From: Arabidopsis thaliana
Taxonomy: Eukaryota; Streptophyta; Magnoliopsida; Brassicales; Brassicaceae
NCBI RefSeq assembly: GCF_000001735.4
Contig: NC_003076.8
Span: forward strand, 20,587,835-20,651,834
Reading direction: 5' to 3'
Length of the DNA stretch: 64,000 nt
Shown here: positions 1 to 43,809 of the stretch, piece by piece
Layout: every line of letters starts with the position of its first letter
How positions within the stretch are numbered: the first letter of the stretch is position 1
Translations under genes and position numbers: made by a program
The notes under the pieces: generated by a model
What the model saw: the letters and a program-made list of their open reading frames with translations, nothing else
Told to the model about the DNA's origin: nothing
Database searches by the model: none

Positions 1-101
1 AACACAAAAGATACCAAATAATGATTTGGAGATTCTCTTATCCTTAATCTTAAATACTAAAGTCTATGACAGTGACATCTGAACAGAAGAAAGCTCAAGA
101 G

Positions 102-109
102 TATATAAA
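102..109 (+). promoter_or_regulatory. TATA box of HSD4 copy A
   Basis: TATATAAA lies 45 bp before the chosen ATG at 154. The same box is at 33444-33451 in copy B. Spacing suits a short 5' leader. Confidence 0.6.
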
Positions 110-153
110 TTGTAGCTTAGCCTCTGGTGAAGCAGAATCACAAAGTCAAGGAT

Positions 154-1462
154 ATGGATTTAAACAACAAGATCTTTAACATCCTTCTTCCTATTGTCAC
201 GGTTTCGTTTCTTTTAGTGTTCATGCCATTTTCAATATTCTTCAAGCTCCTCCAGTTCATAAGGGGATGCAAAGAGTCCGAGAAAGTCAACGGAAAAGTC
301 GTCATCATCACCGGATCTTCCTCAGGAATTGGCGAGGTTAGTTTGTTTGTAATCCTAGAAAAGCTTGGTCTATTTTTTATAAATTGGTTAGTTATTTGGT
401 AAAAAACAAAAGCAATTTGAAGTTGATTTAATGGTGTAGCACCTAGCGTATGAGTATGCTCGTAGAGGAGCATACTTGACTCTAGTAGCTCGGAGAGAGG
501 ATCGTCTCCAGGTGGTGGCTGACCGGTGCAGGAAGCTTGGTTCACCAGACGTTGCTGTGGTACGCGGTGATGTCTCAGTCATCAAAGACTGTAAACGTTT
601 TGTTCAAGAAACCATCTCTCGGTTTGGAAGATGTGAGTTAGTCACTATTATTCGAATAACTAATATTACTACTTGCTTAAAGAACATAAAAAATATAACA
701 AAATTTACATCAGTGGATCACTTGGTGAACAATGCTGGAATTGCGGAGGCCAAATTTTTCGAGGACTATTCTGAAATTTCGGATGTTCTTCCCATTGTGG
801 TATACATTTTTAGATTTAATACATAGTGAAGTCTTTTTTACAATATATGAACCTTGGCAAAATTTGCAGAACACTAACTTTTGGGGACCGGTTTACGCGA
901 CACATTTCGCTATACCGCATCTCAAGAAAACAAAAGGAAAGATCATAGCGGTTGCATCACCTGCTGGATGGTCTGGAGTACCAAGGATGAGCATATATGC
1001 TGTAAATGCTTCTTCTTCTTTTTCTTTCTCTTGTTCTCTAAATTAACCAAGCGTAACATATTAACATAATGAATGTAACATTTGTTTCAGGCAAGCAAAG
1101 CAGCTATGATAAACTTCTACGAGACTCTTAGGATCGAGCTTCATCCAGAAGTTGGTGTGACAATCGTGTTTCCTGGTCTAATCGAAAACGGAAATACTAA
1201 TCCGGACCTTTTAGCTGAGGTATTTTACTATCATCATTTTTCATTTTAGTCTGTCCAAGTTTTATGACTGAAGTCTCTTTTGCAGAAACAAGACTGGTCG
1301 CAAGTTGTGACCATCGAGTCAGCAGCGGAATGCGCCAAAGCGGTAGTTAACGGAATCTGCAGAGGCAAAACCTTTGTGGCAGAGCCGTCGTGGGTTCGTG
1401 TCCTGTTCTGGCTTAGTGCTATATGCCCTGAGCTTCTGATCTCTAAGCCTAAAAGGAATTAA
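154..1462 (+). CDS. HSD4: Steroleosin / 11-beta-hydroxysteroid dehydrogenase-like 4 (copy A)
   Basis: Short-chain dehydrogenase/reductase of the plant steroleosin family. Such proteins are NADP(H)-dependent sterol/hydroxysteroid dehydrogenases anchored in oil bodies or ER. Six exons: 154-336, 440-632, 714-799, 870-1001, 1091-1219, 1286-1462, encoding 299 aa. The start is the ATG at 154 (MDLNNK); an upstream in-frame GTG at 127 is not a plant start. Residues about 5-30 form a hydrophobic anchor. The cofactor motif TGSSSGIGE follows (about 53-61), then VNNAG and a catalytic YAASK formed across the exon 4/5 junction. The C-terminus is shorter than in HSD1: exon 5 has 12 fewer codons and exon 6 ends just past the CPEL motif. 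It converges on HSD1 with a 620-bp gap. Substrate is not deducible from sequence. Confidence 0.93.
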
Positions 1463-2082
1463 CCAGTTGTGTTGTTTAATAATTGCATAATAGAGATAAA
1501 AATCTGAAATACAACATGATGGCCATCTAGTTTTTCTAGTTCTGTTCAGTTTTTTTTTTTTTTGGTTTTAGGAAATGTTCAACCTTTTTTTTTCTTTTTG
1601 TCTTTTTTCTTGTCGTGTTTTAAATAGAAAATAAAATAATCAATAATCAATCATTGATCCAAATTACACATCGAAGTGTTTTTATAACAGTTTTAACATG
1701 TTCAGTTTAACTCAAACTAGTATAAATTTGTTGGAAAAAATCCAGATCAAAAGAGACAATATCATACTAATTGGAAATTTGACTTTGCTCACTCATGCAA
1801 ACCGCAAAAATTTTGTTTACCAATCTCAACTACTAGACAAATATAACTTTTGTTCGAATTCAGTTTAAAATATTTCAGTATGGTTGGATTCTCTTCTGTT
1901 TCGATACACACATGTTTAGTATTAGGCAACTCACTTATTCTTAAAGACACATAGTTAATATACATAGTCAAAAGTACCATTAACAAAAACAAACCTACAT
2001 TTTCACCCATTTCTTTGATAATTATTACTCATTGCACATACTCATGATACATCTCATCCATTTATTATGTATTGACCCCTCT
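1463..2082. other. Convergent 3' intergenic gap between HSD4 and HSD1
   Basis: AT-rich, with poly-T tracts near 1550 and 1585. It presumably contains the 3' UTRs and poly(A) sites of both converging genes. I see no further gene. Confidence 0.6.
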
Positions 2083-3819
2083 CTAATCCGACTTGATTTC
2101 TGGAGTTCTGATAGATTCCGGGTACAGAGTACTACGTACACCAGGAATGTCCATGATCCTCTTGTTGAGTGCAGTATCCTCGGACATACCAGTTCCAGTC
2201 ATGTACAGTAACCGACAACCCCACTCAATCAACTCCGGACATAGCACTTTCCAAAGGTACGTCACCTTAAACCATGATGGCTCTGTCACGTATCTTTGTT
2301 TCCGGCACACACCGTTCACTATCGACTTGGCACATCCTGATGCTGACGCTACCGGAAATGGTCCTACTTGAACCTAGTTAATTTTGGGCAAAAGAACACA
2401 CAATTCAACAATGACCTCAATATTAATTATATTGGTTAAGGAGTTAAAGATTTATTTAACTTACATCTCTCATGTCTTGGTTGACTATTAACTCGCCTTC
2501 ACCAGAGAAGTACTTGCCTTGTGTGAGCTCCGACTCGATATAACCAGGTGTGACGATTGTAATGTGTACATCGCCACCAAGCTCAATTCTCATCGTCTCA
2601 AAGAAGCTCAACAAAGCTGCTTTGCTTGCCTAATTAACATATTATATGTATAATAATATTCATCAATCCCTAAGAGCTTACTTTACTAAGTAATTAAAAG
2701 AAGTGAATATATACTTACATTGTAAAAACTCATCCTTGGAGCGGTTAGCCACGCTGCGGAAGACGACATAGCCACAATCTTACCATTACTTTGTCTAAGG
2801 TATGGAAGCGCAGCACGAGTGGTATAAACCGATCCCCAGAAGTTAGTATCCTAATTAATCACAAATCATTCATTAAAGATCAGGACAACGAATAAAATTA
2901 AAGGGTTGGTAATTAATTATTTTAATTACCAAAACTGCTTTTGTCCTCGTTATATCTTCAATGTTCTCAAACATTGAAATCTGCGTCATCCCAGCATTAT
3001 TTACAAGATGATCCACTGCAAGACCAAAGAAATTCAATGTTTTGTAGACCAAACTTGTGAATGGTAACAAAAAAACGGTCGGTTTTGATAGAGTGATAGT
3101 GATTAGCGTCCCGTGGCGTGACTTACATCTGCCAAAATGGGTGATGGTGTCATCAACGATTCGTCTACAGTCATCAGGTTTGGAGACATCAGCATGAACG
3201 GTAACAACATTGGGAGATCCGAGTTCACGAGCAATCTCTGCCACTTCCTCTAGACGGTTCTTCCTTCGGGCGGTCAGGGCTAAACATGCACCTCTACATG
3301 CGTACTCATATGCCAATTGCTGATATTTCATATACGCAAATAGACTCAAATCAATCATTTTACCATATAAAATATATATCCGTTTCACAAAAATATCGTT
3401 TATATGTTTTTTGTTTTTTTTTGTTTTATCATTTATATTTTCTTATTCATATATATATTTGTTAGAAAAAAACCTAATGTTTTACCCTGAAAATACACTG
3501 ATAATTGTAGCACTGAAAGTCATGATGATATAAATTAATCATTTAAGATTAAATGTGTGAAACTTAGTACTATTGTACCAGTGACCAATTAGGTTATTAA
3601 GTCTACAATTTTAAAATAAAGGCATTATGACCAAACCTCGCCTATACCGGAGGAAGCACCAGTGATGAGAACAACTTTCCCGTAAAGATTTTCAGAGAAA
3701 ATTGTCGAGAAAATAGACTGCAAGAACTTGAAGAAGTAAAAAGGAGGCAAGAAGAAGCAGAGACCAAAGAAGGTGAAGAAAGGAGCAGTTAGGTTGAGAA
3801 AGTCGTTTATCAACTCCAT
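2083..3819 (-). CDS. HSD1: Steroleosin / 11-beta-hydroxysteroid dehydrogenase 1 (copy A)
   Basis: Oil-body-associated SDR; A. thaliana HSD1 is known as a steroleosin linked to brassinosteroid and seed physiology. Exons on the minus strand: 3819-3637, 3319-3127, 3015-2930, 2850-2719, 2629-2465, 2373-2083. This gives 349 aa, the length I recall for HSD1. Residues about 10-35 are a hydrophobic anchor with an LPP proline-knob-like turn. TGASSGIGE binds the nucleotide; VNNAG and YNASK (Tyr/Lys catalytic pair) are intact. The extended C-terminus with CPELIEW is present. The first four exons have the same lengths as in HSD4 and HSD6, so the three are paralogues. RY and ABRE-type motifs lie 160-180 bp upstream of the ATG. 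Confidence 0.95.
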
Positions 3820-3978
3820 TTTTGTCGATCAAAACGTAAATGATTTAGCTCTCATCGATCATTCTCTTTTATCAGCGATATATAAATACAACGCCAATAC
3901 TAAGTTGGATTTTAGACAAAAACGGTGATGAGACGAAGAGAGACAAGACACGAAGATCAAGTGGTAGTGTGGCAACAT

Positions 3979-4001
3979 TGCATGGAACCGAGACGACACG
4001 T
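3979..4001 (-). promoter_or_regulatory. RY and ABRE motifs upstream of HSD1 (copy A)
   Basis: On the gene strand, CATGCA (RY core, bound by B3 factors such as ABI3/FUS3/LEC2) lies at 3984-3979 and ACGTGTC (ABRE core, bound by bZIPs) at 4001-3995, about 160-180 bp before the ATG. A second ACGTG-containing site is near 4328. This pairing is typical of seed-maturation promoters and fits an oil-body protein. The functional role is inferred. Copy B has the same sites at 37321-37343. Confidence 0.55.
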
Positions 4002-5704
4002 TGTGTCAAGATGTGGAAAATGCACGTCGACGACCCCTTCTTCTTCTTTCCTTTATCCACATAACATCTTTGGTAGATAAGATCAAATCTTCGTTCCACC
4101 TATAAGTTATTGTCGTTTCCAAACGACACTATTCTTTAATTGTCGTACTTCGTGTTATTACTCGGTAATTAATCACAAAAATGCTTCTCGCTCTAATAAC
4201 CATGCACATGGGTGATGATTTATTTTGGGTATTAGTAGTCCAAAAATTATATTTTAATTGATCAAACTATGAATTTGGTCCTAATTTATATCAACGGACT
4301 GATATCTTTAATACTTAGATCAGGTGACGTGACAACATACGGTTGGTCAGTATTTTCGCTTTAATAAAAAAAAGATAAACAAAATTTCTTTAATAATTTT
4401 ATGTTTTAACATATTAATTTTTGATTTTGTAATTTTTTTTTTATACTTAATCGATCTCACCAATACAAACATATTTAATAGAAGTATCATAAAAAATCTC
4501 AAATGATAAACAAATATTATAACTAATACTAAAAAATTACTTATAATACTATATAAATATCACCTATATACATGCTATAACTTTAATTATTTATATTAAG
4601 ATATTAATTAATTACAAAATTCTTTAACCAAAATAAATTATTAATTAATAGATCATGCGAGTACCTATTCACAAAACTACAAAAGTAATAAAACAAAATA
4701 ATTTGAGAAAATATTAAGAAACTCGTTTTTGAATATATATCTTATCTTACTTTACCAATTTAACTCCAAATTTAATTAAGAATTAATCCGTAAAATCATG
4801 TCAATGATATCTTATACAATCGAATGTTTGGAAATTTTGAAGAAGTTAAATGATGATTCTCGTATTAATATAATTATTTTTATTAATACAATAGGACGTA
4901 TTATCCATGCATGATGTTAGATATCACATATATGTCACGCCTTATTCATATATATGTTTTTCACGGGATCGTTTATTTTATTATATTAATTTGTTGCTTA
5001 GGATTGTGTAGAAGCTGCTTGCAAATTCGTGAAACTTTTATCACTAACCGTAAGTATATTTTTGCTTGGAAATTATGTTTGGTTACTTTTTGACTCTCGA
5101 GGCCTATGAGAATAATAGAAAGTTAGTCTCATTCTGGCAACCTCTGTTCATATTTAGAGATGTTATCGGGTGCTTACTTCACTAAAACTCGCCCCAAACT
5201 CAAGAACTATTGATTTTATCATCTCTCATGTTGACTCTTGAATTCATAACATGATAACCACGGATCTAATCTCTCGTAACATGAATGAAATTTCATAGAA
5301 GGTGCGGTCATGTCTTTTTATATTTATATATACTTTAGGCTTTCGGTTCCATTGGTATTTCCGTATTTATATATTTCTACGCATTTGATAGTTGGGAGCA
5401 AAAGACAAGCACACCGCTTTTACTTTCGACGTGTGCACGAAATAAAGTAAATCATTTTAAGATATGGTCCTCAACATGCTTTAACTAAGGATTGGTCCTC
5501 TACATCCAATTTAATTAAGCATTCGAAAATGGATTTGGTGAAAGACAACAAAATACTAAAAGGAGTTAAAAAGACAGTTAATAATTCAAAAGGTGTTTGC
5601 ACGCCCACATGGTTACTAAGAAAGTTAAATTAAGTATAACATAAAACGCTCAAGCATGTGATTAGTTTAATCTTAACGATGAAGAACCCTTAAACCATGT
5701 GCTG

Positions 5705-5730
5705 CATGCAAGTAGCTAGGGACTATAAAT
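5705..5730 (+). promoter_or_regulatory. RY motif and TATA box upstream of the DUF4408-like gene (copy A)
   Basis: CATGCA at 5705-5710 lies within a TGCATGCA palindrome, and TATAAAT follows at 5724-5730, 138 bp before the ATG at 5868. The same pair is found in copy B near 39047-39072. Confidence 0.45.
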
Positions 5731-5867
5731 ATTGTTCCAAAAAATAGTCTAGCCACTCCATGTCCAGTCACATTTCGTATCCTTTAGTACCCTAAGTTTC
5801 CTTTGCTACTATACATCAAGATATATCCCATTTTATTTTCACCAAACCTTATTTACCTATAGTATAA

Positions 5868-6425
5868 ATGGATCCCGTAATCGCCATGCAAGAGGCCCAA
5901 AGTAACAACGGACCAAGAACCTACAAGAAGCCATTTCTTAATTTTCTTGACCGCCTCTCCTTGTCATTTATCGTAGTTGTTTTCTGCGTTATTGTAGTTT
6001 TTAGTCCAATTTGGCTTCAATTTTCTAATAGTTTTTTCTTATTCACCATCCCTAGAGTTATTAATTACATCTTAAACCCTAAGGTTTTATTCATTCTCAC
6101 AAATGTTATCGTGATCATCCTCATCGGAGAATCAAGGATTTCTAGACCAAGATCTTCTCTTCCAGCTAGCGCATTACTGAGAAGCCATTCTTATGGTTTG
6201 TGGTCTAATGAAAATGTGAGGGTGGAAATGGGATATCAACGATTTTTGGAAGAGAATATTGATCGACCGAGGCTCGGAGAAGGCAAGATATGTAAGCTTA
6301 GTCCGTTGGAGATGGATTCATTAAACCAGAGGGCTGATGATCTGATCGCTCGTGTGAACAGACAGAGGAGGCTTGAAATTGGGCTGTTACATAGACGCAT
6401 AGACGAAGGCCACATATCATTATAG
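5868..6425 (+). CDS. DUF4408/DUF761-like membrane protein (copy A)
   Basis: Intronless, 185 aa, starting at ATG 5868. Two hydrophobic segments (about residues 30-53 and 68-87) are followed by a polar region. A conserved-looking C-terminal block (LNQRADDLIARVNRQRRLE, about 151-169) resembles the end motif of plant DUF761/cotton-fibre proteins, which often carry an N-terminal DUF4408 membrane part. Function is unknown. It sits alone between HSD1 and the hAT element and is duplicated unchanged at 39210-39767. Family assignment is by recall of the motif. Confidence 0.75.
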   Translation: MDPVIAMQEAQSNNGPRTYKKPFLNFLDRLSLSFIVVVFCVIVVFSPIWLQFSNSFFLFTIPRVINYILNPKVLFILTNVIVIILIGESRISRPRSSLPASALLRSHSYGLWSNENVRVEMGYQRFLEENIDRPRLGEGKICKLSPLEMDSLNQRADDLIARVNRQRRLEIGLLHRRIDEGHISL

Positions 6426-6658
6426 TTGTGGCCAAATGTGCAGAGAGAGCCTTGATTGTTACCAAGAAACCAATTAACATAAAGGAAAATGCAAATTTTC
6501 GTACAAAGGTTACAAATCAATTAATAAAGTTAAGAGTTTTTACGAGATGTTAATAGGATTAAATTCATAATCGGTGGAAATATTTTTGTTACTTTCTCTA
6601 AAAACTTATAAGTTAATATTTTACAAAAAAAAAAAAAAATTAAAGTAAGCCCCACAAG

Positions 6659-9650
6659 TAGGGGTGTCAAAATGGGTCAAAATTCATGGGTCAACTCAAC
6701 TCAACTCAACCCATGAACCCTAATGGGTTGATTTTTAACTCAAATGAGTTGATGGGTCAAATGAGTTGATGAATCAATTGGTTTGATGAGTAAAATGAGT
6801 TGGGTTGTAATGGGTTAATAGTTTTAATGGTTTACCCAATTAACCCATCAAATTTTGTAAAATTGAATTAAACCAACTAAAATCTCTAAACCAATATTTA
6901 ACCAACACATCTAAACCAATTTAATAAAATCATCCTCAAATTTAAGAAATCAATCGTTTGAACAGTTTTGTTTCGTTGAGTTAAAATTTGAAGGTCATAG
7001 AGATTGTAACCTAAAGAGACGGGGATTTTAATCTTCTCGGCCCCTTTTGATTGAATCAATTTTTGAAAAACTTCTACTTATTCTCACTGCCCCCTCTTCT
7101 TCTCAATATTTCTGAAAACCAACTCTACCCTCTCTTTATGATGGGACCCTTATCTTATCATTCTTTATTTCTTTTTTAAATTTTATATCTAACCAACTCT
7201 AAAATCAACTAATCAAATTCATTCTCTCTCCTTTCCCAATAACCATCAAAATCTATTAAAATGCCTAATAAACTCATTCTTCTTCTTCTTCTTCCTACCA
7301 TTTGCTCCCTAAAAACGTTTTTCACTTTTTTATTTTCTTTAATTCTTCTCCATACACCATTTAAGTTCATCATTAAATCAACACAAAAAAATCGTATCTA
7401 CATATCTTTTCTCTTCTTTGTGTTCTTCTTCATAGACCATTAAAAATATTTGTTTACTTTTTCTTATAGTAAGATGTGATGTTGGTAACTAGTATACTTG
7501 GTTGAATTCGCAGATTAAATACAGGTTTTTTTAGAAAAATTTGGGGATTATAAATTTAGGACAATTGAAACAAATGTGTACGACTATGTTGATAGACTAA
7601 TACGAAAATATAAAATTATAGACTATTTTTTTTCTCTTTTCCATTTTAAGTGATAATCAAAAAGACTTCAGTCATAAGCTTTGCTTATAATGAATATGAT
7701 TAATTTTCTTGTCGTATCTGAACAAATTAAGTTGTTCTGTCCTGGTACAACCAAGAACAACCCTTACAACTAAGGTCTATTGCCTTGTCTTGTTTTTAGA
7801 ATTTTATAAAATATGAAAATTTAAGACCAAATTTATAAAAAAAGAAAAACTTAAATGATGCATACACGATAGTAATGAAACTACATTACAAGTTTTTGAC
7901 CAAAAAAAATCATCTTTTCTAGAATAATGAAACTCTTATCACAAAATTCAACATTCATACACTAACAACCTTATACTTTCATGGTTACTTTGTATATTTG
8001 AACTATATTTTTTTAATTTTTTAAATACTTGTATTTTGATAAATATAAATATACTGATACATTGTAATGGTATTTTGATGAGATAATATCATCGGTTCCA
8101 CCAAAAAAATCTTATTTAGAGTTGATAACAACTAGATTTAATAAATTCTCGATATTGTACAAGTATGAGCATAAATGTGCAACCGAGTACAACTATACAA
8201 CTATGAACAAATTTGTGCAATTATTTAATTGATGTTTTCAAAATATCAGCGCCACATCATATATTTGTCAAGTTTTTTAAGATATGTAGATATTTTAGAT
8301 ACTTTATTTTTTTTTCCTTCGTTTTTAGATCAAAACTTCATAATAAATTTTTATTTTTTTCAAAACACAATCATTCATAATTTTTCGTAATTTTTTTTTG
8401 TCAAAAAATCTTAGATTCATAAATAAACCTAGAAGCATAGTTGTACATACGTCTACCAGTTGTACCTAAATGTCCTAAACATTTAGATTCATACATAAAC
8501 TTCAAAAACCACAAGACAAACCAAACAATTATACTTCAAACCAAAACCCAAGAGAATTGTACCTAAAAGACTACAACTACCAAGTCTTCTTTGTCTTATA
8601 CTTCTCTTTCTCTTTTTCCTTCTCCTTCTCTTCCTCCTCCTCTTCCTCTTGTAATAAAGACACAAATGTTCGAGGCTAATATACACATACAAAAAAATTC
8701 GTCCATGTCTGCAACTCCTTATTAACCCACTTGAAACCAGATTTCTTCCAAAATTGACCAAGAGAAATCAATCATTTTAATAAGAATTTACAAATAAAGT
8801 TACAGTTTTTACTCATTATCTCTCAATAAAAACAAGAAAAAAACTGTTACATGTCGTTCCAAGTCAATACTAAGTTAAGAAGTTAAGAACCTTCAAGAAA
8901 CTCACTCCATCTATGGAGATATAGAGTCGTCTCCATCGTACTCATCTATGACTTCAATCAATTTCCTAATTCACAAAAAACAACACAAAATGAAACGAGA
9001 ATTGAGCAATTGAACTAAAATCCAAGAGCAAAGATGTGAAATTGGAAAAGGAAAATAAGAGGAAGATGAAGACTATGAATCTGAAGTGGAATTAGCTAAC
9101 TGTAGTTGTTAGAATAACTAGAATTTATAAAAGGGATCCCTTATTCCGCCTAGTGGAGAGAACAATGGAAGCTGAGAATTTGGTTATGGATATAAGATTT
9201 TGTGGGTTTCAAATTTGAGGTGAGAAAGATGATGTAAAGTTGTCTGAGTATCGTGGATAAATAAAGAAGAGAAATGAGAAGATGTAGGTTTTTTAATTTG
9301 GGATTTAGAAATAAAAGATCCAAACTTACATGGATTTAGATCTAAAGTGTGGTTGAGTTGTAAATATGTCAAATATCATCAGATTTTTTTGTCTTTTATC
9401 ATTTATCTGAATTAAAATAAATAGATAAAGACATTTTTCTTATATCGGGGGCTAAGCAGAAAATGTTTCGAGCTTTGGGGGCCAAGTAGATTAAAATCCA
9501 AGAGACGGCGTGAAACCAGATAAGCGATCCCGGTGGTCTTACGGCGGAGGGATGACCGAACCGCTCGGGCCAACGGCTGAAATGCTCTAATCCCCGGAGT
9601 CTGCGCCACCGTATGTGTAGGTGAATCAAAGGAGAGACACCGTAGGTTAA
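6659..9650. mobile_element. Left part of a hAT transposon, cut at the duplication boundary
   Basis: Starts with the terminal inverted repeat TAGGGGTGTC, preceded by CCCACAAG (half of the target-site duplication seen around the full copy). It then carries subterminal repeats with ATGAGTTG/ATGGGTT motifs (6670-6850). It matches 40001-42992 without a visible difference. At 9650 it stops abruptly and different sequence follows, so the transposase part and right end are missing here. No transposase coding is seen in this 3-kb portion; an Arg/Lys-rich open frame at 8489-8761 (-) is low complexity. Confidence 0.9.
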
Positions 9651-9656
9651 AATATT
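9645..9656. other. Junction between duplication units A and B
   Basis: Left of 9650 the sequence matches the hAT copy at 42992; right of it begins DUF3444 relic sequence. The breakpoint base pairs include TTAA, so short microhomology is possible but can only be judged against the start of unit A outside the window. Confidence 0.8.
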
Positions 9657-10104
9657 CTTTTTCATTGAAATCTTGAGGCACTTCATACTTGTCCACAACT
9701 TCTTGGGGAGTTAAAATATCATGTGACCAATTTGCATAAAGAGCCAAAATATTGCCTTTTGTCGCTTATATGTGCATCAATCCTTTCTCACATATTGTTC
9801 ACAAGGCACTATGTGAGAATGAGTTGAGAGAATCATTGTTGCTATGTTTCCTAATTGAGAAGCATCCACTCGTCTTGTAATACCCTAAATCAATCCACTT
9901 CTTCATTGAACCCACATATCCATTTTTCTTGCCATTAAGCCAACAAATGCACATCTTGAACGGTTCTTGAGAGACAAACTTATGGACCAGTGCATACCAC
10001 TGTGGCATTCCATAATCATCATAAGTAGCCCAAACTTGGTTTTCTCTCAACAAAGCTTGAGTCTGATCCTTGTCGAAGTCTTAGACATCTGGAAGACTCG
10101 AAAC
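9651..10104 (-). pseudogene. Relic of a DUF3444 domain (C-terminal part of a J-protein)
   Basis: Reading 10104 to 9651 on the minus strand gives LPDV-stop-DFDKDQ, then QVWATYDDYGMPQWYALV, a cysteine-containing stretch, WIDLGYYKTSGCF, LNSFSH, and after two more stops NILALYANWSHD and TPQEVVDKYEVP. This order matches the DUF3444 domain of plant DnaJ proteins. In-frame stops at 10083-10081 (TAA), 9801-9799 (TGA) and 9768-9766 (TAA) show it is dead. The relic runs right up to the duplication junction and is cut by it. It probably belonged to the same ancestral gene as the J-like frame at 12893-13582. Confidence 0.75.
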
Positions 10105-10139
10105 ACTCATAACCACCACATTTTATTCATCTTTTTTGA

Positions 10140-10245
10140 TCAATGCAGGATGAATATCCAAATAGATGCAAAGATCAAATGGTTATGTTATGTGTGCTCA
10201 TTATCGCAAGCCCTTTGGAGCAATTGAGTACTTGCTCCATGGATA
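10140..10245 (+). pseudogene. Fragment of the J-protein zinc-ribbon-like segment
   Basis: The stretch with GAATATCCAA, ATGCAAAGATC and GTTATGTGTG followed by KPFGAIEY-like coding matches the arms of the inverted repeat at 11143-11634. In J/DUF3444 proteins the corresponding segment (C-x2-C ... YEYP ... C-x2-C ... F.A.E.P) lies between the J and DUF3444 domains. It is on the strand opposite to the DUF3444 relic, so the locus has been rearranged. Confidence 0.5.
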
Positions 10246-11142
10246 ATCCTTTTTAATCGATAGAATTATGCTAAGCAGCAACAAATCACGAGACTGAGTC
10301 AGTTTCCGAGCTATGATATAACTAAAGAGTTGTCACCAGAAGAGTCGTCGGTATGAATATAATCTACTCGGTAGTCACTAGAGGAGTCACTAATCAGGGC
10401 TAAATATGAATGTATCTCGAAGCAGGGCTATATGATTGGAATGAGAGTTTGATCATATGTTATATCATTTTGAAATTCTTATCATCATTTATGTCAAAGT
10501 TTTTATGTGATTTGCAATGAGAAGTGGAGCTTATAAGATATTGTTCCTCTATTTTGTTCTGAGAGATGTAAAGACTTATTAAATAGAGAGCAATCATGTC
10601 GTAACTCCAGTTTAAAACTGTTACATATCCTGCTAAGAAGACTCGACAGTTTCTTGCTCACCAGGAAATAGGGTTTCAGATAACGAAAACAAACCAAGTA
10701 CAATTCACAAAATTTATTTCTTAATTTTTATTTTTATTTTGACTTACACTTTCATTTTAGTAGACTTTATCTTGTTTCCTAAGTCTCGTAGGTCTTTGCT
10801 TCCTTCTAGGTCTTGATAAAGGATTTTCTTCCTTTTAGGTTCTGTTGAAACCCTAGAACCTTTTTTTTTTCAAAAAGGTTTTAACACTAGAACCTTGTTT
10901 ACAGCTTTCTTCTCTTTTATTATTCACCAGCTATTGATTTGATATAAACGAGGCTAAGAAAGAGAAAAAAAGAGAGACAATTAATGTTCAATGTATCGTT
11001 TACATGAAAGAAAGAGAAATATAGAAACGCCTAGTTAAAATGAATCGGTTCTACAAACTGATATTTTGTTATTATTATTATTTTCAAACTGAGCTTTTGT
11101 ATTTTGACTGAAGGAAAAACATAACTGGCAAATATAAAAATT
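10246..11142. other. Region without recognised gene
   Basis: Between J-protein relics. AT-rich, no convincing exon, no transposon ends recognised. A 66-codon minus frame at 10503-10703 has no family features. Confidence 0.4.
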
Positions 11143-11634: not shown

Positions 11635-11960
11635 TCGTTTTCGATCGCTGTTAAAATAGTACACAATATCTTTTGGTCTCTTAGTTTTGATCCTGCAAAA
11701 GAAAAAGATTGATAATCAGAAAGTAGAAAGTGGGAAAACTTTTCATCAAACGCTTTAGTATGATTTAATTTCTTATGCCCGAGGCACAGGCTAGAGACCA
11801 AAAAAAAGTACTCTAAAATCTGATATATATCCCAACGAAATACAGAAAAGAAGCCTCCTAAATAATAAAATCAAAGTAAATAACACGAGCCATATATCAA
11901 AGGTGGTTTCTGTAAACCATACCTTTGCCTTGAGAGTGAAGAAGCAGTTTCAGACTTGTG
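11598..11960 (-). pseudogene. Partial copy of the 5' leader region of the J-like gene
   Basis: Sequence near 11690-11740 (GCAAAAGAAA, GATTGATAATCAGAA, GTGGGAAAACTTTT) repeats with differences the stretch just upstream of the J-like gene at 13620-13705. The CATACCTTTGCCTTG block near 11921 resembles 14489-14503. This is an older, diverged local duplication of non-coding 5' sequence; no J domain remains here. Confidence 0.45.
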
Positions 11961-31007: not shown

Positions 31008-32909
31008 ATGGACGGAGATGAGCTCACCGAGCAGGAAACTGCTCTTTATGACCGTCAAATTAGGGTATGGGGAGCTGGTGCTCAAAGAAGGTACTTCACA
31101 TTGAATCTAACTTCTATGGCTTCAAGCAACAACAAGTTATTGATTTTCCGTTTGAGTACTAATAAACTCTTCTTGTTGGGCTATACTCGGTGAAAGTTTA
31201 TCTCTTTCTGGGTTTTAAGCTAATTTAGCTGTTGAAATTTTGATTAGGGCTTCTCTGAATTTTGTTTTGTGTTTTTGCTTGCAGATTGAGTAAATCTCAT
31301 GTTTTGGTATCTGGAATTAAGGGCACTGTTGCTGAGGTACCTCTTACTTTATTTTGTGACTCTCTATTAGCTATGTTGCAGTAGAGTGAGTGTTGGCATC
31401 TTACTTGGTTTCCTCCATTTGGTGTTGCAGTTTTGTAAGAACATTGTGTTGGCAGGAGTAGGTAGTGTGACTCTGTTGGATGATCGATTGGTTACAACGG
31501 AAGTCTTCAACGCAAACTTCTTGATTCTTCCTGATGAAAATGCTTATGTAGGCAAAACCGTAGCTGAGATTTGTTGTGATTCACTTAAGGATTTTAACCC
31601 TATGGTTCATGTTTCAATAGAGAAAGGTTACTCCTCCTTTCTTCATTTCTCTCTAATTTTAGTAGAAACAAATGATTTTAGTAACATCGAGTCTATGTCT
31701 TCAATTTCAGGTGATTTGTCAACACTTGGTGTTGATTTTTTCGAGAAGTTTGATGTTGTGGTTATCGGCTACAGTTCTCGTGCTACTAAGGTACTGTTGA
31801 TACCTCCTTCTTTTAGTTGTTCCAGTTGTTTTTGTCTTTTGTTGCCATGTAGATTGATCACTTGAAATAATGTGCTTTGTTATGCAGAAAGCAGTTAATG
31901 AAAAGTGTAGGAACCTAGCAAAAGATGTAGCGTTCTATACAGTTGATTGTAGAGGCTCATGTGGCGAAATATTTGTCGACCTTCAGAATTATAAGTACAC
32001 AAAGGTACTCATCTCGTTTTTTTCTTTTGACGGTTGTATATCACATGCCTTTCTTTTGGCATATAATGTGTTAACTTTCTTTCTCTATTGTCAATTTTGG
32101 CTTCATAGAAAAAGCTTGATGAAACAGTGGAATGTGAACTAACATTTCCAAGTTTTGAGGTACAACAAACTTAACTTCTTACTTTCCTGGAACATACTTT
32201 CGCATGAAAAGTAATAGAAATTCAATCTATTAACTGGTCTTATTTCTCCAGGAGGCAGTTTCAGTACCGTGGAAACCGATGCCAAGGAGAACAGCAAAGC
32301 TCTACTTTGCAATGAGAGGTCTGGCTAACAACAACAGCTAACCTTTTGAAAGCTTGGTTTCTTCCTACGTAACTAATCCGGTTTTGTGATATTCTTGCAG
32401 TGATAGAACTATTTGAGGAAACTGAAGGACGTAAACCTGGGGAATGTTCGCTGTCTGATCTCCCAAGAGTTTTGAAACTCAAAAAGGAACTATGTGAAGG
32501 AAATGTAAGTTTCTTTAACCTTTATTTGTAAGCTCTACAATAATAACGACAAATAACAAACTTTGTCACTCACTTTGAATCCGAATGTTGCAACAGTCGG
32601 TCAGCGAGAATCATATTCCAGATATCCTCTTGGAGAGACTCGTATCTAATAACACAGAATTCCCACCGGCTTGTGCCATCATTGGAGGGATTCTAGGACA
32701 GGTACAGTTCTCTATCTCGCTTCTCTAGGACTTTGTTAGTTATCTAGATTAAGCACTTAGCAGAGTAATGTGACTCAAAAAAGTTGTATTTGTACGTACA
32801 GGAGGTGATAAAAGTTATATCAGGCAAAGGAGAGCCGTTGAAGAACTTCTTCTACTTTGATGCAGAGGATGGGAAAGGTGTAATCGAGGACCTATCCCAC
32901 AAGCTTTAA
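31008..32909 (+). CDS. SAE1B: SUMO-activating enzyme subunit 1B (unit B copy)
   Basis: Ten exons: 31008-31090, 31285-31336, 31431-31626, 31711-31790, 31888-32004, 32109-32159, 32252-32318, 32401-32504, 32597-32701, 32802-32909. They give 320 aa, as known for SAE1B. It is the small subunit of the SUMO E1 heterodimer. With SAE2, which supplies the catalytic cysteine, it adenylates SUMO in the nucleus. Hallmarks: YDRQIRVWGAGAQRRL near the start, the Rossmann-type segment VLAGVGSVTLLDD, and NFLILPDENAYVGKT. The C-terminus (CAIIGGILGQEVIKVISGKGEP, then FFYFDAEDGKG) matches the UBA/ThiF fold end. The first copy should lie in unit A. Confidence 0.97.
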
Positions 32910-33495
32910 CTTCCAAACATGAAAGGTGCTGTGAAACGCTGCTCTTAGTAATTAGTTCCTTGTTGAAGATTGTATTGGAAATTAGACTTTAGAGTACTTA
33001 GAACTTGGCTCCTTGTCTTTTGTATCTACTAACTTGGTTCGCTCCTAAAGACAATCTGTAACCCACTATTTACTTTAATCCATCAATTTACACACTCCTA
33101 TCTATGTGAAGGTGTTCTATTTTGTCCGGAAATTTTCGATTTCGGTTTCTGGCTCTTTGAGTGGCATCTTTATAATATAACAAACAGCAAAATTTGACAG
33201 TCTATAGTGAGTTTTGTTATGGTTCATTGCTTAGTGACATTATTTGTTGTTGAGGGAGGTTTCAAACCAATAGAGATGAAAGTGGAAACTTCTCCACAAG
33301 TTGAGAAAAATATTTGATAAAAACATAAGTTGGATGAGGACAAACACAAAAGATACCAAATAATGATTTGGAGATTCTCTTATCCTTAATCTTAAATACT
33401 AAAGTCTATGACAGTGACATCTGAACAGAAGAAAGCTCAAGAGTATATAAATTGTAGCTTAGCCTCTGGTGAAGCAGAATCACAAAGTCAAGGAT
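32910..33495. other. SAE1B 3' region and HSD4 copy B promoter
   Basis: SAE1B 3' UTR, spacer, then from 33343 the sequence equal to position 1 onward. The TATA box of HSD4 copy B is at 33444-33451. Confidence 0.6.
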
Positions 33496-34804
33496 ATGGA
33501 TTTAAACAACAAGATCTTTAACATCCTTCTTCCTATTGTCACGGTTTCGTTTCTTTTAGTGTTCATGCCATTTTCAATATTCTTCAAGCTCCTCCAGTTC
33601 ATAAGGGGATGCAAAGAGTCCGAGAAAGTCAACGGAAAAGTCGTCATCATCACCGGATCTTCCTCAGGAATTGGCGAGGTTAGTTTGTTTGTAATCCTAG
33701 AAAAGCTTGGTCTATTTTTTATAAATTGGTTAGTTATTTGGTAAAAAACAAAAGCAATTTGAAGTTGATTTAATGGTGTAGCACCTAGCGTATGAGTATG
33801 CTCGTAGAGGAGCATACTTGACTCTAGTAGCTCGGAGAGAGGATCGTCTCCAGGTGGTGGCTGACCGGTGCAGGAAGCTTGGTTCACCAGACGTTGCTGT
33901 GGTACGCGGTGATGTCTCAGTCATCAAAGACTGTAAACGTTTTGTTCAAGAAACCATCTCTCGGTTTGGAAGATGTGAGTTAGTCACTATTATTCGAATA
34001 ACTAATATTACTACTTGCTTAAAGAACATAAAAAATATAACAAAATTTACATCAGTGGATCACTTGGTGAACAATGCTGGAATTGCGGAGGCCAAATTTT
34101 TCGAGGACTATTCTGAAATTTCGGATGTTCTTCCCATTGTGGTATACATTTTTAGATTTAATACATAGTGAAGTCTTTTTTACAATATATGAACCTTGGC
34201 AAAATTTGCAGAACACTAACTTTTGGGGACCGGTTTACGCGACACATTTCGCTATACCGCATCTCAAGAAAACAAAAGGAAAGATCATAGCGGTTGCATC
34301 ACCTGCTGGATGGTCTGGAGTACCAAGGATGAGCATATATGCTGTAAATGCTTCTTCTTCTTTTTCTTTCTCTTGTTCTCTAAATTAACCAAGCGTAACA
34401 TATTAACATAATGAATGTAACATTTGTTTCAGGCAAGCAAAGCAGCTATGATAAACTTCTACGAGACTCTTAGGATCGAGCTTCATCCAGAAGTTGGTGT
34501 GACAATCGTGTTTCCTGGTCTAATCGAAAACGGAAATACTAATCCGGACCTTTTAGCTGAGGTATTTTACTATCATCATTTTTCATTTTAGTCTGTCCAA
34601 GTTTTATGACTGAAGTCTCTTTTGCAGAAACAAGACTGGTCGCAAGTTGTGACCATCGAGTCAGCAGCGGAATGCGCCAAAGCGGTAGTTAACGGAATCT
34701 GCAGAGGCAAAACCTTTGTGGCAGAGCCGTCGTGGGTTCGTGTCCTGTTCTGGCTTAGTGCTATATGCCCTGAGCTTCTGATCTCTAAGCCTAAAAGGAA
34801 TTAA
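33496..34804 (+). CDS. HSD7: Steroleosin / hydroxysteroid dehydrogenase-like 4B (copy B)
   Basis: Duplicate of the gene at 154-1462 with no difference seen. Exons 33496-33678, 33782-33974, 34056-34141, 34212-34343, 34433-34561, 34628-34804; 299 aa. Same anchor, TGSSSGIGE, VNNAG and YAASK motifs. It lies 586 bp downstream of SAE1B on the same strand and converges on HSD1 copy B. Known in A. thaliana as HSD7 or HSD4B (from memory). With identical promoter sequence from at least 33343 on, both copies should be expressed alike unless more distal elements differ. Confidence 0.93.
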
Positions 34805-35424
34805 CCAGTTGTGTTGTTTAATAATTGCATAATAGAGATAAAAATCTGAAATACAACATGATGGCCATCTAGTTTTTCTAGTTCTGTTCAGTTTTTTTTT
34901 TTTTTGGTTTTAGGAAATGTTCAACCTTTTTTTTTCTTTTTGTCTTTTTTCTTGTCGTGTTTTAAATAGAAAATAAAATAATCAATAATCAATCATTGAT
35001 CCAAATTACACATCGAAGTGTTTTTATAACAGTTTTAACATGTTCAGTTTAACTCAAACTAGTATAAATTTGTTGGAAAAAATCCAGATCAAAAGAGACA
35101 ATATCATACTAATTGGAAATTTGACTTTGCTCACTCATGCAAACCGCAAAAATTTTGTTTACCAATCTCAACTACTAGACAAATATAACTTTTGTTCGAA
35201 TTCAGTTTAAAATATTTCAGTATGGTTGGATTCTCTTCTGTTTCGATACACACATGTTTAGTATTAGGCAACTCACTTATTCTTAAAGACACATAGTTAA
35301 TATACATAGTCAAAAGTACCATTAACAAAAACAAACCTACATTTTCACCCATTTCTTTGATAATTATTACTCATTGCACATACTCATGATACATCTCATC
35401 CATTTATTATGTATTGACCCCTCT
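34805..35424. other. Convergent gap between HSD7 and HSD1 copy B
   Basis: Copy of 1463-2082; 3' UTR sequence of both genes, no further feature. Confidence 0.6.
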
Positions 35425-37161
35425 CTAATCCGACTTGATTTCTGGAGTTCTGATAGATTCCGGGTACAGAGTACTACGTACACCAGGAATGTCCATGATC
35501 CTCTTGTTGAGTGCAGTATCCTCGGACATACCAGTTCCAGTCATGTACAGTAACCGACAACCCCACTCAATCAACTCCGGACATAGCACTTTCCAAAGGT
35601 ACGTCACCTTAAACCATGATGGCTCTGTCACGTATCTTTGTTTCCGGCACACACCGTTCACTATCGACTTGGCACATCCTGATGCTGACGCTACCGGAAA
35701 TGGTCCTACTTGAACCTAGTTAATTTTGGGCAAAAGAACACACAATTCAACAATGACCTCAATATTAATTATATTGGTTAAGGAGTTAAAGATTTATTTA
35801 ACTTACATCTCTCATGTCTTGGTTGACTATTAACTCGCCTTCACCAGAGAAGTACTTGCCTTGTGTGAGCTCCGACTCGATATAACCAGGTGTGACGATT
35901 GTAATGTGTACATCGCCACCAAGCTCAATTCTCATCGTCTCAAAGAAGCTCAACAAAGCTGCTTTGCTTGCCTAATTAACATATTATATGTATAATAATA
36001 TTCATCAATCCCTAAGAGCTTACTTTACTAAGTAATTAAAAGAAGTGAATATATACTTACATTGTAAAAACTCATCCTTGGAGCGGTTAGCCACGCTGCG
36101 GAAGACGACATAGCCACAATCTTACCATTACTTTGTCTAAGGTATGGAAGCGCAGCACGAGTGGTATAAACCGATCCCCAGAAGTTAGTATCCTAATTAA
36201 TCACAAATCATTCATTAAAGATCAGGACAACGAATAAAATTAAAGGGTTGGTAATTAATTATTTTAATTACCAAAACTGCTTTTGTCCTCGTTATATCTT
36301 CAATGTTCTCAAACATTGAAATCTGCGTCATCCCAGCATTATTTACAAGATGATCCACTGCAAGACCAAAGAAATTCAATGTTTTGTAGACCAAACTTGT
36401 GAATGGTAACAAAAAAACGGTCGGTTTTGATAGAGTGATAGTGATTAGCGTCCCGTGGCGTGACTTACATCTGCCAAAATGGGTGATGGTGTCATCAACG
36501 ATTCGTCTACAGTCATCAGGTTTGGAGACATCAGCATGAACGGTAACAACATTGGGAGATCCGAGTTCACGAGCAATCTCTGCCACTTCCTCTAGACGGT
36601 TCTTCCTTCGGGCGGTCAGGGCTAAACATGCACCTCTACATGCGTACTCATATGCCAATTGCTGATATTTCATATACGCAAATAGACTCAAATCAATCAT
36701 TTTACCATATAAAATATATATCCGTTTCACAAAAATATCGTTTATATGTTTTTTGTTTTTTTTTGTTTTATCATTTATATTTTCTTATTCATATATATAT
36801 TTGTTAGAAAAAAACCTAATGTTTTACCCTGAAAATACACTGATAATTGTAGCACTGAAAGTCATGATGATATAAATTAATCATTTAAGATTAAATGTGT
36901 GAAACTTAGTACTATTGTACCAGTGACCAATTAGGTTATTAAGTCTACAATTTTAAAATAAAGGCATTATGACCAAACCTCGCCTATACCGGAGGAAGCA
37001 CCAGTGATGAGAACAACTTTCCCGTAAAGATTTTCAGAGAAAATTGTCGAGAAAATAGACTGCAAGAACTTGAAGAAGTAAAAAGGAGGCAAGAAGAAGC
37101 AGAGACCAAAGAAGGTGAAGAAAGGAGCAGTTAGGTTGAGAAAGTCGTTTATCAACTCCAT
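35425..37161 (-). CDS. HSD1: Steroleosin / 11-beta-hydroxysteroid dehydrogenase 1 (copy B)
   Basis: Duplicate of 2083-3819 with no difference seen. Exons 37161-36979, 36661-36469, 36357-36272, 36192-36061, 35971-35807, 35715-35425; 349 aa. All SDR motifs are intact (TGASSGIGE, VNNAG, YNASK), as is the proline-containing anchor. The upstream RY/ABRE block is copied at 37321-37343. Two identical HSD1 loci are a known feature of the Col-0 reference. Confidence 0.95.
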
Positions 37162-39209
37162 TTTTGTCGATCAAAACGTAAATGATTTAGCTCTCATCGA
37201 TCATTCTCTTTTATCAGCGATATATAAATACAACGCCAATACTAAGTTGGATTTTAGACAAAAACGGTGATGAGACGAAGAGAGACAAGACACGAAGATC
37301 AAGTGGTAGTGTGGCAACATTGCATGGAACCGAGACGACACGTTGTGTCAAGATGTGGAAAATGCACGTCGACGACCCCTTCTTCTTCTTTCCTTTATCC
37401 ACATAACATCTTTGGTAGATAAGATCAAATCTTCGTTCCACCTATAAGTTATTGTCGTTTCCAAACGACACTATTCTTTAATTGTCGTACTTCGTGTTAT
37501 TACTCGGTAATTAATCACAAAAATGCTTCTCGCTCTAATAACCATGCACATGGGTGATGATTTATTTTGGGTATTAGTAGTCCAAAAATTATATTTTAAT
37601 TGATCAAACTATGAATTTGGTCCTAATTTATATCAACGGACTGATATCTTTAATACTTAGATCAGGTGACGTGACAACATACGGTTGGTCAGTATTTTCG
37701 CTTTAATAAAAAAAAGATAAACAAAATTTCTTTAATAATTTTATGTTTTAACATATTAATTTTTGATTTTGTAATTTTTTTTTTATACTTAATCGATCTC
37801 ACCAATACAAACATATTTAATAGAAGTATCATAAAAAATCTCAAATGATAAACAAATATTATAACTAATACTAAAAAATTACTTATAATACTATATAAAT
37901 ATCACCTATATACATGCTATAACTTTAATTATTTATATTAAGATATTAATTAATTACAAAATTCTTTAACCAAAATAAATTATTAATTAATAGATCATGC
38001 GAGTACCTATTCACAAAACTACAAAAGTAATAAAACAAAATAATTTGAGAAAATATTAAGAAACTCGTTTTTGAATATATATCTTATCTTACTTTACCAA
38101 TTTAACTCCAAATTTAATTAAGAATTAATCCGTAAAATCATGTCAATGATATCTTATACAATCGAATGTTTGGAAATTTTGAAGAAGTTAAATGATGATT
38201 CTCGTATTAATATAATTATTTTTATTAATACAATAGGACGTATTATCCATGCATGATGTTAGATATCACATATATGTCACGCCTTATTCATATATATGTT
38301 TTTCACGGGATCGTTTATTTTATTATATTAATTTGTTGCTTAGGATTGTGTAGAAGCTGCTTGCAAATTCGTGAAACTTTTATCACTAACCGTAAGTATA
38401 TTTTTGCTTGGAAATTATGTTTGGTTACTTTTTGACTCTCGAGGCCTATGAGAATAATAGAAAGTTAGTCTCATTCTGGCAACCTCTGTTCATATTTAGA
38501 GATGTTATCGGGTGCTTACTTCACTAAAACTCGCCCCAAACTCAAGAACTATTGATTTTATCATCTCTCATGTTGACTCTTGAATTCATAACATGATAAC
38601 CACGGATCTAATCTCTCGTAACATGAATGAAATTTCATAGAAGGTGCGGTCATGTCTTTTTATATTTATATATACTTTAGGCTTTCGGTTCCATTGGTAT
38701 TTCCGTATTTATATATTTCTACGCATTTGATAGTTGGGAGCAAAAGACAAGCACACCGCTTTTACTTTCGACGTGTGCACGAAATAAAGTAAATCATTTT
38801 AAGATATGGTCCTCAACATGCTTTAACTAAGGATTGGTCCTCTACATCCAATTTAATTAAGCATTCGAAAATGGATTTGGTGAAAGACAACAAAATACTA
38901 AAAGGAGTTAAAAAGACAGTTAATAATTCAAAAGGTGTTTGCACGCCCACATGGTTACTAAGAAAGTTAAATTAAGTATAACATAAAACGCTCAAGCATG
39001 TGATTAGTTTAATCTTAACGATGAAGAACCCTTAAACCATGTGCTGCATGCAAGTAGCTAGGGACTATAAATATTGTTCCAAAAAATAGTCTAGCCACTC
39101 CATGTCCAGTCACATTTCGTATCCTTTAGTACCCTAAGTTTCCTTTGCTACTATACATCAAGATATATCCCATTTTATTTTCACCAAACCTTATTTACCT
39201 ATAGTATAA
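37162..39209. other. AT-rich intergenic region, copy of 3820-5867
   Basis: HSD1 copy B promoter at the left (RY 37321-37326, ABRE core 37337-37343), promoter of the DUF4408-like gene at the right (RY 39047-39052, TATA 39066-39072). Nothing else recognised. Confidence 0.6.
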
Positions 39210-39767
39210 ATGGATCCCGTAATCGCCATGCAAGAGGCCCAAAGTAACAACGGACCAAGAACCTACAAGAAGCCATTTCTTAATTTTCTTGACCGCCTCT
39301 CCTTGTCATTTATCGTAGTTGTTTTCTGCGTTATTGTAGTTTTTAGTCCAATTTGGCTTCAATTTTCTAATAGTTTTTTCTTATTCACCATCCCTAGAGT
39401 TATTAATTACATCTTAAACCCTAAGGTTTTATTCATTCTCACAAATGTTATCGTGATCATCCTCATCGGAGAATCAAGGATTTCTAGACCAAGATCTTCT
39501 CTTCCAGCTAGCGCATTACTGAGAAGCCATTCTTATGGTTTGTGGTCTAATGAAAATGTGAGGGTGGAAATGGGATATCAACGATTTTTGGAAGAGAATA
39601 TTGATCGACCGAGGCTCGGAGAAGGCAAGATATGTAAGCTTAGTCCGTTGGAGATGGATTCATTAAACCAGAGGGCTGATGATCTGATCGCTCGTGTGAA
39701 CAGACAGAGGAGGCTTGAAATTGGGCTGTTACATAGACGCATAGACGAAGGCCACATATCATTATAG
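39210..39767 (+). CDS. DUF4408/DUF761-like membrane protein (copy B)
   Basis: Same 185-aa protein as at 5868-6425, with two N-terminal hydrophobic segments and the C-terminal LNQRADDLIARVNRQRRLE block. In this copy the downstream neighbour is the full-length hAT element, starting 233 bp past the stop codon. Confidence 0.75.
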   Translation: MDPVIAMQEAQSNNGPRTYKKPFLNFLDRLSLSFIVVVFCVIVVFSPIWLQFSNSFFLFTIPRVINYILNPKVLFILTNVIVIILIGESRISRPRSSLPASALLRSHSYGLWSNENVRVEMGYQRFLEENIDRPRLGEGKICKLSPLEMDSLNQRADDLIARVNRQRRLEIGLLHRRIDEGHISL

Positions 39768-42700
39768 TTGTGGCCAAATGTGCAGAGAGAGCCTTGATTG
39801 TTACCAAGAAACCAATTAACATAAAGGAAAATGCAAATTTTCGTACAAAGGTTACAAATCAATTAATAAAGTTAAGAGTTTTTACGAGATGTTAATAGGA
39901 TTAAATTCATAATCGGTGGAAATATTTTTGTTACTTTCTCTAAAAACTTATAAGTTAATATTTTACAAAAAAAAAAAAAAATTAAAGTAAGCCCCACAAG
40001 TAGGGGTGTCAAAATGGGTCAAAATTCATGGGTCAACTCAACTCAACTCAACCCATGAACCCTAATGGGTTGATTTTTAACTCAAATGAGTTGATGGGTC
40101 AAATGAGTTGATGAATCAATTGGTTTGATGAGTAAAATGAGTTGGGTTGTAATGGGTTAATAGTTTTAATGGTTTACCCAATTAACCCATCAAATTTTGT
40201 AAAATTGAATTAAACCAACTAAAATCTCTAAACCAATATTTAACCAACACATCTAAACCAATTTAATAAAATCATCCTCAAATTTAAGAAATCAATCGTT
40301 TGAACAGTTTTGTTTCGTTGAGTTAAAATTTGAAGGTCATAGAGATTGTAACCTAAAGAGACGGGGATTTTAATCTTCTCGGCCCCTTTTGATTGAATCA
40401 ATTTTTGAAAAACTTCTACTTATTCTCACTGCCCCCTCTTCTTCTCAATATTTCTGAAAACCAACTCTACCCTCTCTTTATGATGGGACCCTTATCTTAT
40501 CATTCTTTATTTCTTTTTTAAATTTTATATCTAACCAACTCTAAAATCAACTAATCAAATTCATTCTCTCTCCTTTCCCAATAACCATCAAAATCTATTA
40601 AAATGCCTAATAAACTCATTCTTCTTCTTCTTCTTCCTACCATTTGCTCCCTAAAAACGTTTTTCACTTTTTTATTTTCTTTAATTCTTCTCCATACACC
40701 ATTTAAGTTCATCATTAAATCAACACAAAAAAATCGTATCTACATATCTTTTCTCTTCTTTGTGTTCTTCTTCATAGACCATTAAAAATATTTGTTTACT
40801 TTTTCTTATAGTAAGATGTGATGTTGGTAACTAGTATACTTGGTTGAATTCGCAGATTAAATACAGGTTTTTTTAGAAAAATTTGGGGATTATAAATTTA
40901 GGACAATTGAAACAAATGTGTACGACTATGTTGATAGACTAATACGAAAATATAAAATTATAGACTATTTTTTTTCTCTTTTCCATTTTAAGTGATAATC
41001 AAAAAGACTTCAGTCATAAGCTTTGCTTATAATGAATATGATTAATTTTCTTGTCGTATCTGAACAAATTAAGTTGTTCTGTCCTGGTACAACCAAGAAC
41101 AACCCTTACAACTAAGGTCTATTGCCTTGTCTTGTTTTTAGAATTTTATAAAATATGAAAATTTAAGACCAAATTTATAAAAAAAGAAAAACTTAAATGA
41201 TGCATACACGATAGTAATGAAACTACATTACAAGTTTTTGACCAAAAAAAATCATCTTTTCTAGAATAATGAAACTCTTATCACAAAATTCAACATTCAT
41301 ACACTAACAACCTTATACTTTCATGGTTACTTTGTATATTTGAACTATATTTTTTTAATTTTTTAAATACTTGTATTTTGATAAATATAAATATACTGAT
41401 ACATTGTAATGGTATTTTGATGAGATAATATCATCGGTTCCACCAAAAAAATCTTATTTAGAGTTGATAACAACTAGATTTAATAAATTCTCGATATTGT
41501 ACAAGTATGAGCATAAATGTGCAACCGAGTACAACTATACAACTATGAACAAATTTGTGCAATTATTTAATTGATGTTTTCAAAATATCAGCGCCACATC
41601 ATATATTTGTCAAGTTTTTTAAGATATGTAGATATTTTAGATACTTTATTTTTTTTTCCTTCGTTTTTAGATCAAAACTTCATAATAAATTTTTATTTTT
41701 TTCAAAACACAATCATTCATAATTTTTCGTAATTTTTTTTTGTCAAAAAATCTTAGATTCATAAATAAACCTAGAAGCATAGTTGTACATACGTCTACCA
41801 GTTGTACCTAAATGTCCTAAACATTTAGATTCATACATAAACTTCAAAAACCACAAGACAAACCAAACAATTATACTTCAAACCAAAACCCAAGAGAATT
41901 GTACCTAAAAGACTACAACTACCAAGTCTTCTTTGTCTTATACTTCTCTTTCTCTTTTTCCTTCTCCTTCTCTTCCTCCTCCTCTTCCTCTTGTAATAAA
42001 GACACAAATGTTCGAGGCTAATATACACATACAAAAAAATTCGTCCATGTCTGCAACTCCTTATTAACCCACTTGAAACCAGATTTCTTCCAAAATTGAC
42101 CAAGAGAAATCAATCATTTTAATAAGAATTTACAAATAAAGTTACAGTTTTTACTCATTATCTCTCAATAAAAACAAGAAAAAAACTGTTACATGTCGTT
42201 CCAAGTCAATACTAAGTTAAGAAGTTAAGAACCTTCAAGAAACTCACTCCATCTATGGAGATATAGAGTCGTCTCCATCGTACTCATCTATGACTTCAAT
42301 CAATTTCCTAATTCACAAAAAACAACACAAAATGAAACGAGAATTGAGCAATTGAACTAAAATCCAAGAGCAAAGATGTGAAATTGGAAAAGGAAAATAA
42401 GAGGAAGATGAAGACTATGAATCTGAAGTGGAATTAGCTAACTGTAGTTGTTAGAATAACTAGAATTTATAAAAGGGATCCCTTATTCCGCCTAGTGGAG
42501 AGAACAATGGAAGCTGAGAATTTGGTTATGGATATAAGATTTTGTGGGTTTCAAATTTGAGGTGAGAAAGATGATGTAAAGTTGTCTGAGTATCGTGGAT
42601 AAATAAAGAAGAGAAATGAGAAGATGTAGGTTTTTTAATTTGGGATTTAGAAATAAAAGATCCAAACTTACATGGATTTAGATCTAAAGTGTGGTTGAGT

Positions 42701-43809
42701 TGTAAATATGTCAAATATCATCAGATTTTTTTGTCTTTTATCATTTATCTGAATTAAAATAAATAGATAAAGACATTTTTCTTATATCGGGGGCTAAGCA
42801 GAAAATGTTTCGAGCTTTGGGGGCCAAGTAGATTAAAATCCAAGAGACGGCGTGAAACCAGATAAGCGATCCCGGTGGTCTTACGGCGGAGGGATGACCG
42901 AACCGCTCGGGCCAACGGCTGAAATGCTCTAATCCCCGGAGTCTGCGCCACCGTATGTGTAGGTGAATCAAAGGAGAGACACCGTAGGTTAACGTCCTTT
43001 GACTATTCTTTTAGGATCATTTTAGTTAGACTGTTCTTTTTTTTTTGCAAGTTCAGCACAAGCTCAAATCCTTCAATTTCCAGCTTCTGTTTGTTAAATT
43101 TCAGCTCTTTTGTTGTTTTTAAGCTAATGAAAGACCCTAGTTGATCTTAAGAAGCAATCAGCTGTTAGTATAAGCATCTGGAAACTTGAATTTTGCGTTT
43201 CTTTTTTGGTATCTTTTTGGTTTAAGTTGGTGTTGAAATATTTAACTTTCTATTTCTGGTTTCTATGGAGTTTGGTTTAGAGATCTATATGTAAGATGAT
43301 TTGTGTGTGAGTCCTGTCTCCTCTTGGTTTAGGAAATCATGTTCAGGATCTAACTTAAGTGATAGTAGAAGCGTATTCAATGCTGCTCTAGAGTTCTGAA
43401 GCTTGTTTATATGGTTAATTTTCACTTTATTTGAATGGCTCTACTTTTAATAGACTAGTCTTCTTCTAGCTTATGTCTAGGGTCAAAGATGATGTCTATC
43501 ACGTCTCCTCTTGGTTTGGGAAATCATGTTCATGATCTAACTTAACCAAATTTTTAATGTATCATGCCTAATCAGAGTTACACTCAGTGTAGAAATATTT
43601 TTAGAATAACAAGAGCTAACAAAAATCGTATTTAGTCATATGCTTGCCGTATTGTCCAAAACAGTCTTCTTTTCTCTTTGTTTTATTGATTCTTTGACTG
43701 TGTCTATGTGATTAATTCTTGTATTTGGCTAATAACAGGTTTTATTAAGCAATCTCTAACTTGGCCTTATTTCTATGTATAGTTATTTGCAGCTGATCTT
43801 TTACAAAAA

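Follow-up and report, generated by a model that had tools for sequence, protein, structure and literature searches.

A 33-kb duplication carrying SPL13 has already been reported as recent in the Columbia strain of Arabidopsis thaliana. According to the parts consulted of the study by Xu et al. (2016; PMC4991793), SPL13A and SPL13B lie within a 33-kb tandem duplication showing no polymorphisms, and qPCR assays on four accessions gave twice as much SPL13 DNA as SPL9 DNA in Col and equal amounts in Ler, Bak-2, and Voeran. The text seen of PMC10311447 traces HSD1a/b and HSD4a/b back to a chromosome 5 duplication of 33 kb, with reference to Baud et al. (2009) and Aziz et al. (2020). Both SPL13 coding sequences are described as identical in the excerpt available from PMC6191825, as are the HSD4 and HSD7 proteins in that from PMC12712439.

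The locus analyzed here lies in a window of 64,000 nucleotides corresponding to C5:20587835-20651834 (C5, contig NC_003076.8). It shares its genes, its size, and the absence of substitutions with the duplication described in the consulted parts of Xu et al. (2016; PMC4991793), and was taken to be the same locus; whereas that description gives no polymorphisms, the present assembly shows two one-base homopolymer differences. The size and the chromosome of the HSD1/HSD4 duplication (PMC10311447, seen in part) also agree with those found here, steroleosin-type dehydrogenase exons are present inside the unit, and we know of no difference between the two. The additions made here are the exact ends of the unit, the joint between the copies, the two homopolymer differences, and the surroundings of the breakpoints. 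These details, which may nevertheless have been published elsewhere, were not found in the portions of the published descriptions consulted, and the anatomy of the breakpoints was not found in those of PMC4991793 in particular.

Extent and Structure of the Duplicated Unit

When the window was compared base by base with itself at an offset of 33,342, positions 1-9650 and 33343-42992 showed no mismatches, which bears out the identity claimed for them in the initial annotation of this DNA. At this offset, the first mismatch appears at position 9651, and the identity amounts to approximately 25–30% per kilobase from position 10001 onward. Of copy 1, the window shows no more than the last 9,650 bp on the right, so that the 33-kb duplication proposed in that annotation had been deduced from the spacing. 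Traced outward with the left flank fetched from the assembly, the two-copy unit is indeed a head-to-tail duplication, but the length of 33,342 bp previously assigned to it does not apply to either copy (Table 1) and corresponds to the spacing of the right part only.

The match between the copies extends over 25,719 bp at a spacing of 33,342 in the right part, then over 4,901 bp at 33,341 in the middle, and over 2,717 bp at 33,340 on the left. The spacing shifts because of two one-base differences in homopolymer length: T24 and A16 in copy 1 are replaced by T25 and A17 in copy 2. The unit contains 15 homopolymers of at least 10 bases, and these two differences may be sequencing errors. Within the limits of the copies, no substitutions occur in this one assembly over 33,337 aligned bp. 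The absence of divergence previously noted therefore holds for substitutions, but not for the two homopolymers, which are located outside the stretch compared at that time. In a BLAST comparison of the 113-kb region with itself, the unit was recovered as a single alignment of 33,343 columns at 99.991% identity with one mismatch, because the alignment extends a few bases to the left past the joint and counts a C/T pair there, involving C5:20564147.

In this one assembly, the copies are thus adjacent, in direct orientation, and span the whole unit, as befits a tandem segmental duplication, and they show little or no substitution, as befits a recent one, the only candidate being a C/T pair at the joint that may be a true difference. 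A query consisting of window positions 1-3000, 3,000 bp from inside the unit, matched the 119.66-Mb, seven-contig genome over its full length at the two sites already known, in addition to a 52-bp match at 85%; no third copy of the unit was present among the best-scored matches.

Table 1. Features of the duplicated unit and its breakpoints (window positions, unless C5 coordinates are given).
Feature	Position	Strand	Details
Copy 1	C5:20564148-20597484		33,337 bp; start falls left of the window
Copy 1, final 9,650 bp	1..9650	+	Matches copy 2 at the offset
Copy 2, entire	C5:20597488-20630826 = 9654..42992	+	33,339 bp
AAT at the copy 1/copy 2 junction	9651..9653	.	In neither copy end
KDTA-like first exon, ectopic copy	9500..9650 and 42842..42992	.	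151 bp; 149/151 to C5:995230-995380, minus
Nodulin-like/NFD4 transporter exons	15187..17106	-	PF06813, PF23262
CBS-domain exon	19971..20432	-	PF00571, E=3.7e-6
SBP-domain exon, read as SPL13B	28856..29299	-	PF03110, E=3.7e-16; name after PMC4991793 (seen in part) and position
Weak ThiF exon, read as SAE1B	31371..31865	+	PF00899, E=0.00068, below curated cut-off; name after the papers
Short-chain dehydrogenase exon, HSD1 or HSD4	33782..34168 (copy 1: 440-826)	+	PF00106, E=8.6e-11; copy 1 version scanned
Short-chain dehydrogenase exon, HSD1 or HSD4	36215..36784 (copy 1: 2873-3442)	-	PF00106, E=1.2e-9; copy 1 version scanned
DUF4408 open frame	39210..39767 (copy 1: 5868-6425)	+	PF14364, E=1.5e-6; both copies
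hAT-like transposase piece, right of the unit	43973..44359	+	PF14372, E=3.9e-12; transposon-like DNA

Genes Present in the Unit

The Pfam scan covered 23 of the 32 stop-to-stop frames of at least 110 aa in the window, one frame being scanned in both copies, as well as one frame from the KDTA-like locus, which makes 24 entries. No Pfam family was detected at an E value of 0.01 in nine of the 23 window frames scanned. The names SPL13A/SPL13B, SAE1B, and HSD1/HSD4 were fitted to the frames on the basis of their domains and their order, and should be read accordingly. The names SPL13 and SAE1B, already given in the initial annotation, fit the SBP-domain exon, the ThiF match (below the cut-off), and the published gene pairs. 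Matches with Transposase_28, Viral_cys_rich, and MFS_1 were below the curated cut-offs and were taken to be due to chance or redundant.

Surroundings of the Breakpoints

The left end of the unit is located within an imperfect palindrome of approximately 800 bp (C5:20563703-20564500): a 992-bp query around this end matched its own reverse complement at 77% identity over approximately 800 bp. The inverted pair detected in the self-comparison is part of this palindrome. Among the matches listed, its relatives include at least C5:20380315-20380905 and C5:9934555-9935073. Folded as a single strand, 911 nt of the palindrome gave -272 kcal/mol, versus a mean of -91.5 (sd 7.4, n=20) in the case of shuffled sequences. 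In the hairpin, which is centered at C5:20564101.5, C5:20564067 is the pairing partner of the base with which the unit starts; the left break is therefore approximately 46 nt from the center. The palindrome may plausibly have given rise to the left break in this single event.

At the right breakpoint, the edge of the 151-bp KDTA-like fragment coincides exactly with the end of the unit in both copies. Its source at C5:995230-995380 was interpreted as exon 1 of a KDTA-like gene, based on a PF04413 match (E=0.001) below the cut-off. That this fragment might be filler created at the joint was considered and rejected as the straightforward interpretation: the identical 151 bp also close copy 2, where it meets the original right flank. 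Since both copies end with it, the fragment most likely predates the duplication. At the end of copy 2, transposon-like DNA adjoins this fragment. Position 42993 was considered as a candidate for the true end of the hAT-like element; related pieces on C4 and C2 start aligning at positions 42994 and 43019, respectively, the sequence beyond being different.

Several other features were observed to the right of the unit. The two Rfam matches obtained at gathering scores both lie there: the MIR405 family (RF00768) matched positions 44703-44786 on both strands, in transposon-like DNA, with 104.9 and 102.1 bits (cut-off 102). ARAGORN, run with bacterial settings, detected nothing in the window. An AT-rich nested tandem repeat array with periods of 11, 21, 32, 63, and 126 and many internal inverted matches occupies positions 51708-52296, and its second part is apparently mostly the reverse complement of the first one. 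Among the genes on this side, exons of a reversibly glycosylated polypeptide (PF03214) occupy positions 53223-54636, and a frame of the auxin-responsive, SAUR-like type (PF02519) was found at 56907-57497.

Joint Between the Copies and Mechanism of Duplication

At the joint, copy 1 ends in GGTTAA, followed by AAT and then by copy 2, which begins with ATTC. The AAT may be either a three-base filler or the result of 1–2 nt of microhomology combined with one C/T difference. Little or no homology, or a short filler, is what end joining leaves at a joint, and end joining is probably the mechanism responsible for the duplication, as inferred from this single event. Two breaks would have occurred, the left one inside the palindromic element and the right one at the edge of the KDTA-like fragment, and non-homologous or microhomology end joining would have linked them across sister or homologous chromatids, leaving three bases at the joint. 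A more specific scenario, which we put forward tentatively and consider rather unlikely, is that a break near the tip of the palindrome-forming, transposon-like element may have seeded the duplication and been joined to a fragile KDTA-like/hAT-like site, the latter having been broken at least twice, upon the insertion of the fragment and upon the duplication.

A recent duplication might also have arisen by non-allelic homologous recombination between flanking repeats, which would affect only the mechanism proposed. Transposon-like sequences are present at both ends, and two direct repeats, one of approximately 214 bp (80%) and another of 187 bp (85%), are in keeping with this possibility, but they connect the left flank with internal parts of the unit, not with its right end. 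No direct repeat linking both ends of the unit was detected in the self-comparison of the 113-kb region (repeats longer than 150 bp, E values up to 1e-5), the joint shows no hybrid repeat, and the bases shared there amount to no more than 1–2, so that recombination of this kind is extremely improbable.

Age of the Duplication and Alternative Explanations

The substitution rate adopted is that of the initial annotation, 7e-9 per site per generation. The calculation previously made on the 9,650 bp visible was correct (7,402 generations per expected difference); with the whole unit (two copies of 33,337 bp, 7e-9), one difference is expected per 2,143 generations. The absence of substitutions sets an upper limit of approximately 6,400 generations (95%) on the age of the duplication, provided that gene conversion has erased none of them; this estimate leaves out the C/T pair that may differ at the joint, and also the homopolymer differences, since tracts of this type are prone to errors and accumulate mutations rapidly.

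We conclude that the unit is almost certainly a real, recent tandem segmental duplication in the Columbia lineage, which at least three other accessions lack according to the qPCR data printed in the consulted parts of PMC4991793. A very recent duplication, as suggested in the initial annotation, is the best reading of the locus, and the published DNA dosage (same source and parts) is in line with it. The same annotation had mentioned two alternatives, ongoing homogenisation and an assembly artefact. Had the second copy resulted from the joining of two overlapping large-insert clones that were not merged, nearly total identity and a unit of some tens of kilobases would be expected, and the two homopolymer differences would also be compatible with two clones sequenced separately; the reference was assembled clone by clone. 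The three bases at the joint are, however, foreign to the end of either copy. Among the motifs GATC, AAGCTT, and GAATTC, taken as sites of cloning enzymes, the one nearest the joint, a GATC, is separated from it by 126 bp, which argues at most weakly against a clone end, since trimming could mask the site. It is chiefly the dosage printed in the parts seen of PMC4991793, where SPL13 DNA is doubled in Col and single in the three other accessions, that makes an artefact of this kind exceedingly improbable.

Taken alone, the sequence would also fit a duplication of greater age whose copies have been kept identical through gene conversion or unequal exchange, and does not distinguish this from youth. 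Homogenisation can occur between long identical direct repeats. Gene conversion is usually less complete near the ends of repeats, however, and the identity observed here persists until a few bases from either end. The single-copy amounts measured in the three non-Columbia accessions (PMC4991793, parts consulted) make an old duplication needless. Of the two possibilities raised in the initial annotation, recent duplication was therefore retained, whereas homogenisation is unnecessary and very unlikely.

Implications for Studies on Columbia

The recent tandem duplication explains why two loci each are listed for SPL13, SAE1B, HSD1, and HSD4 in Columbia. SPL13 is involved in the phase change controlled by miR156, and SAE1B is a subunit of the SUMO E1 enzyme. 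The exact ends of the unit and the homopolymer tracts lend themselves to simple assays, with which the joint can be detected and, if the differences between the tracts are real, the two copies can be told apart. Data obtained on Columbia in this region, whether they consist of gene numbers, knock-outs, transcript quantification, or SNP calls based on short reads, would probably not be directly transferable to accessions carrying a single copy.
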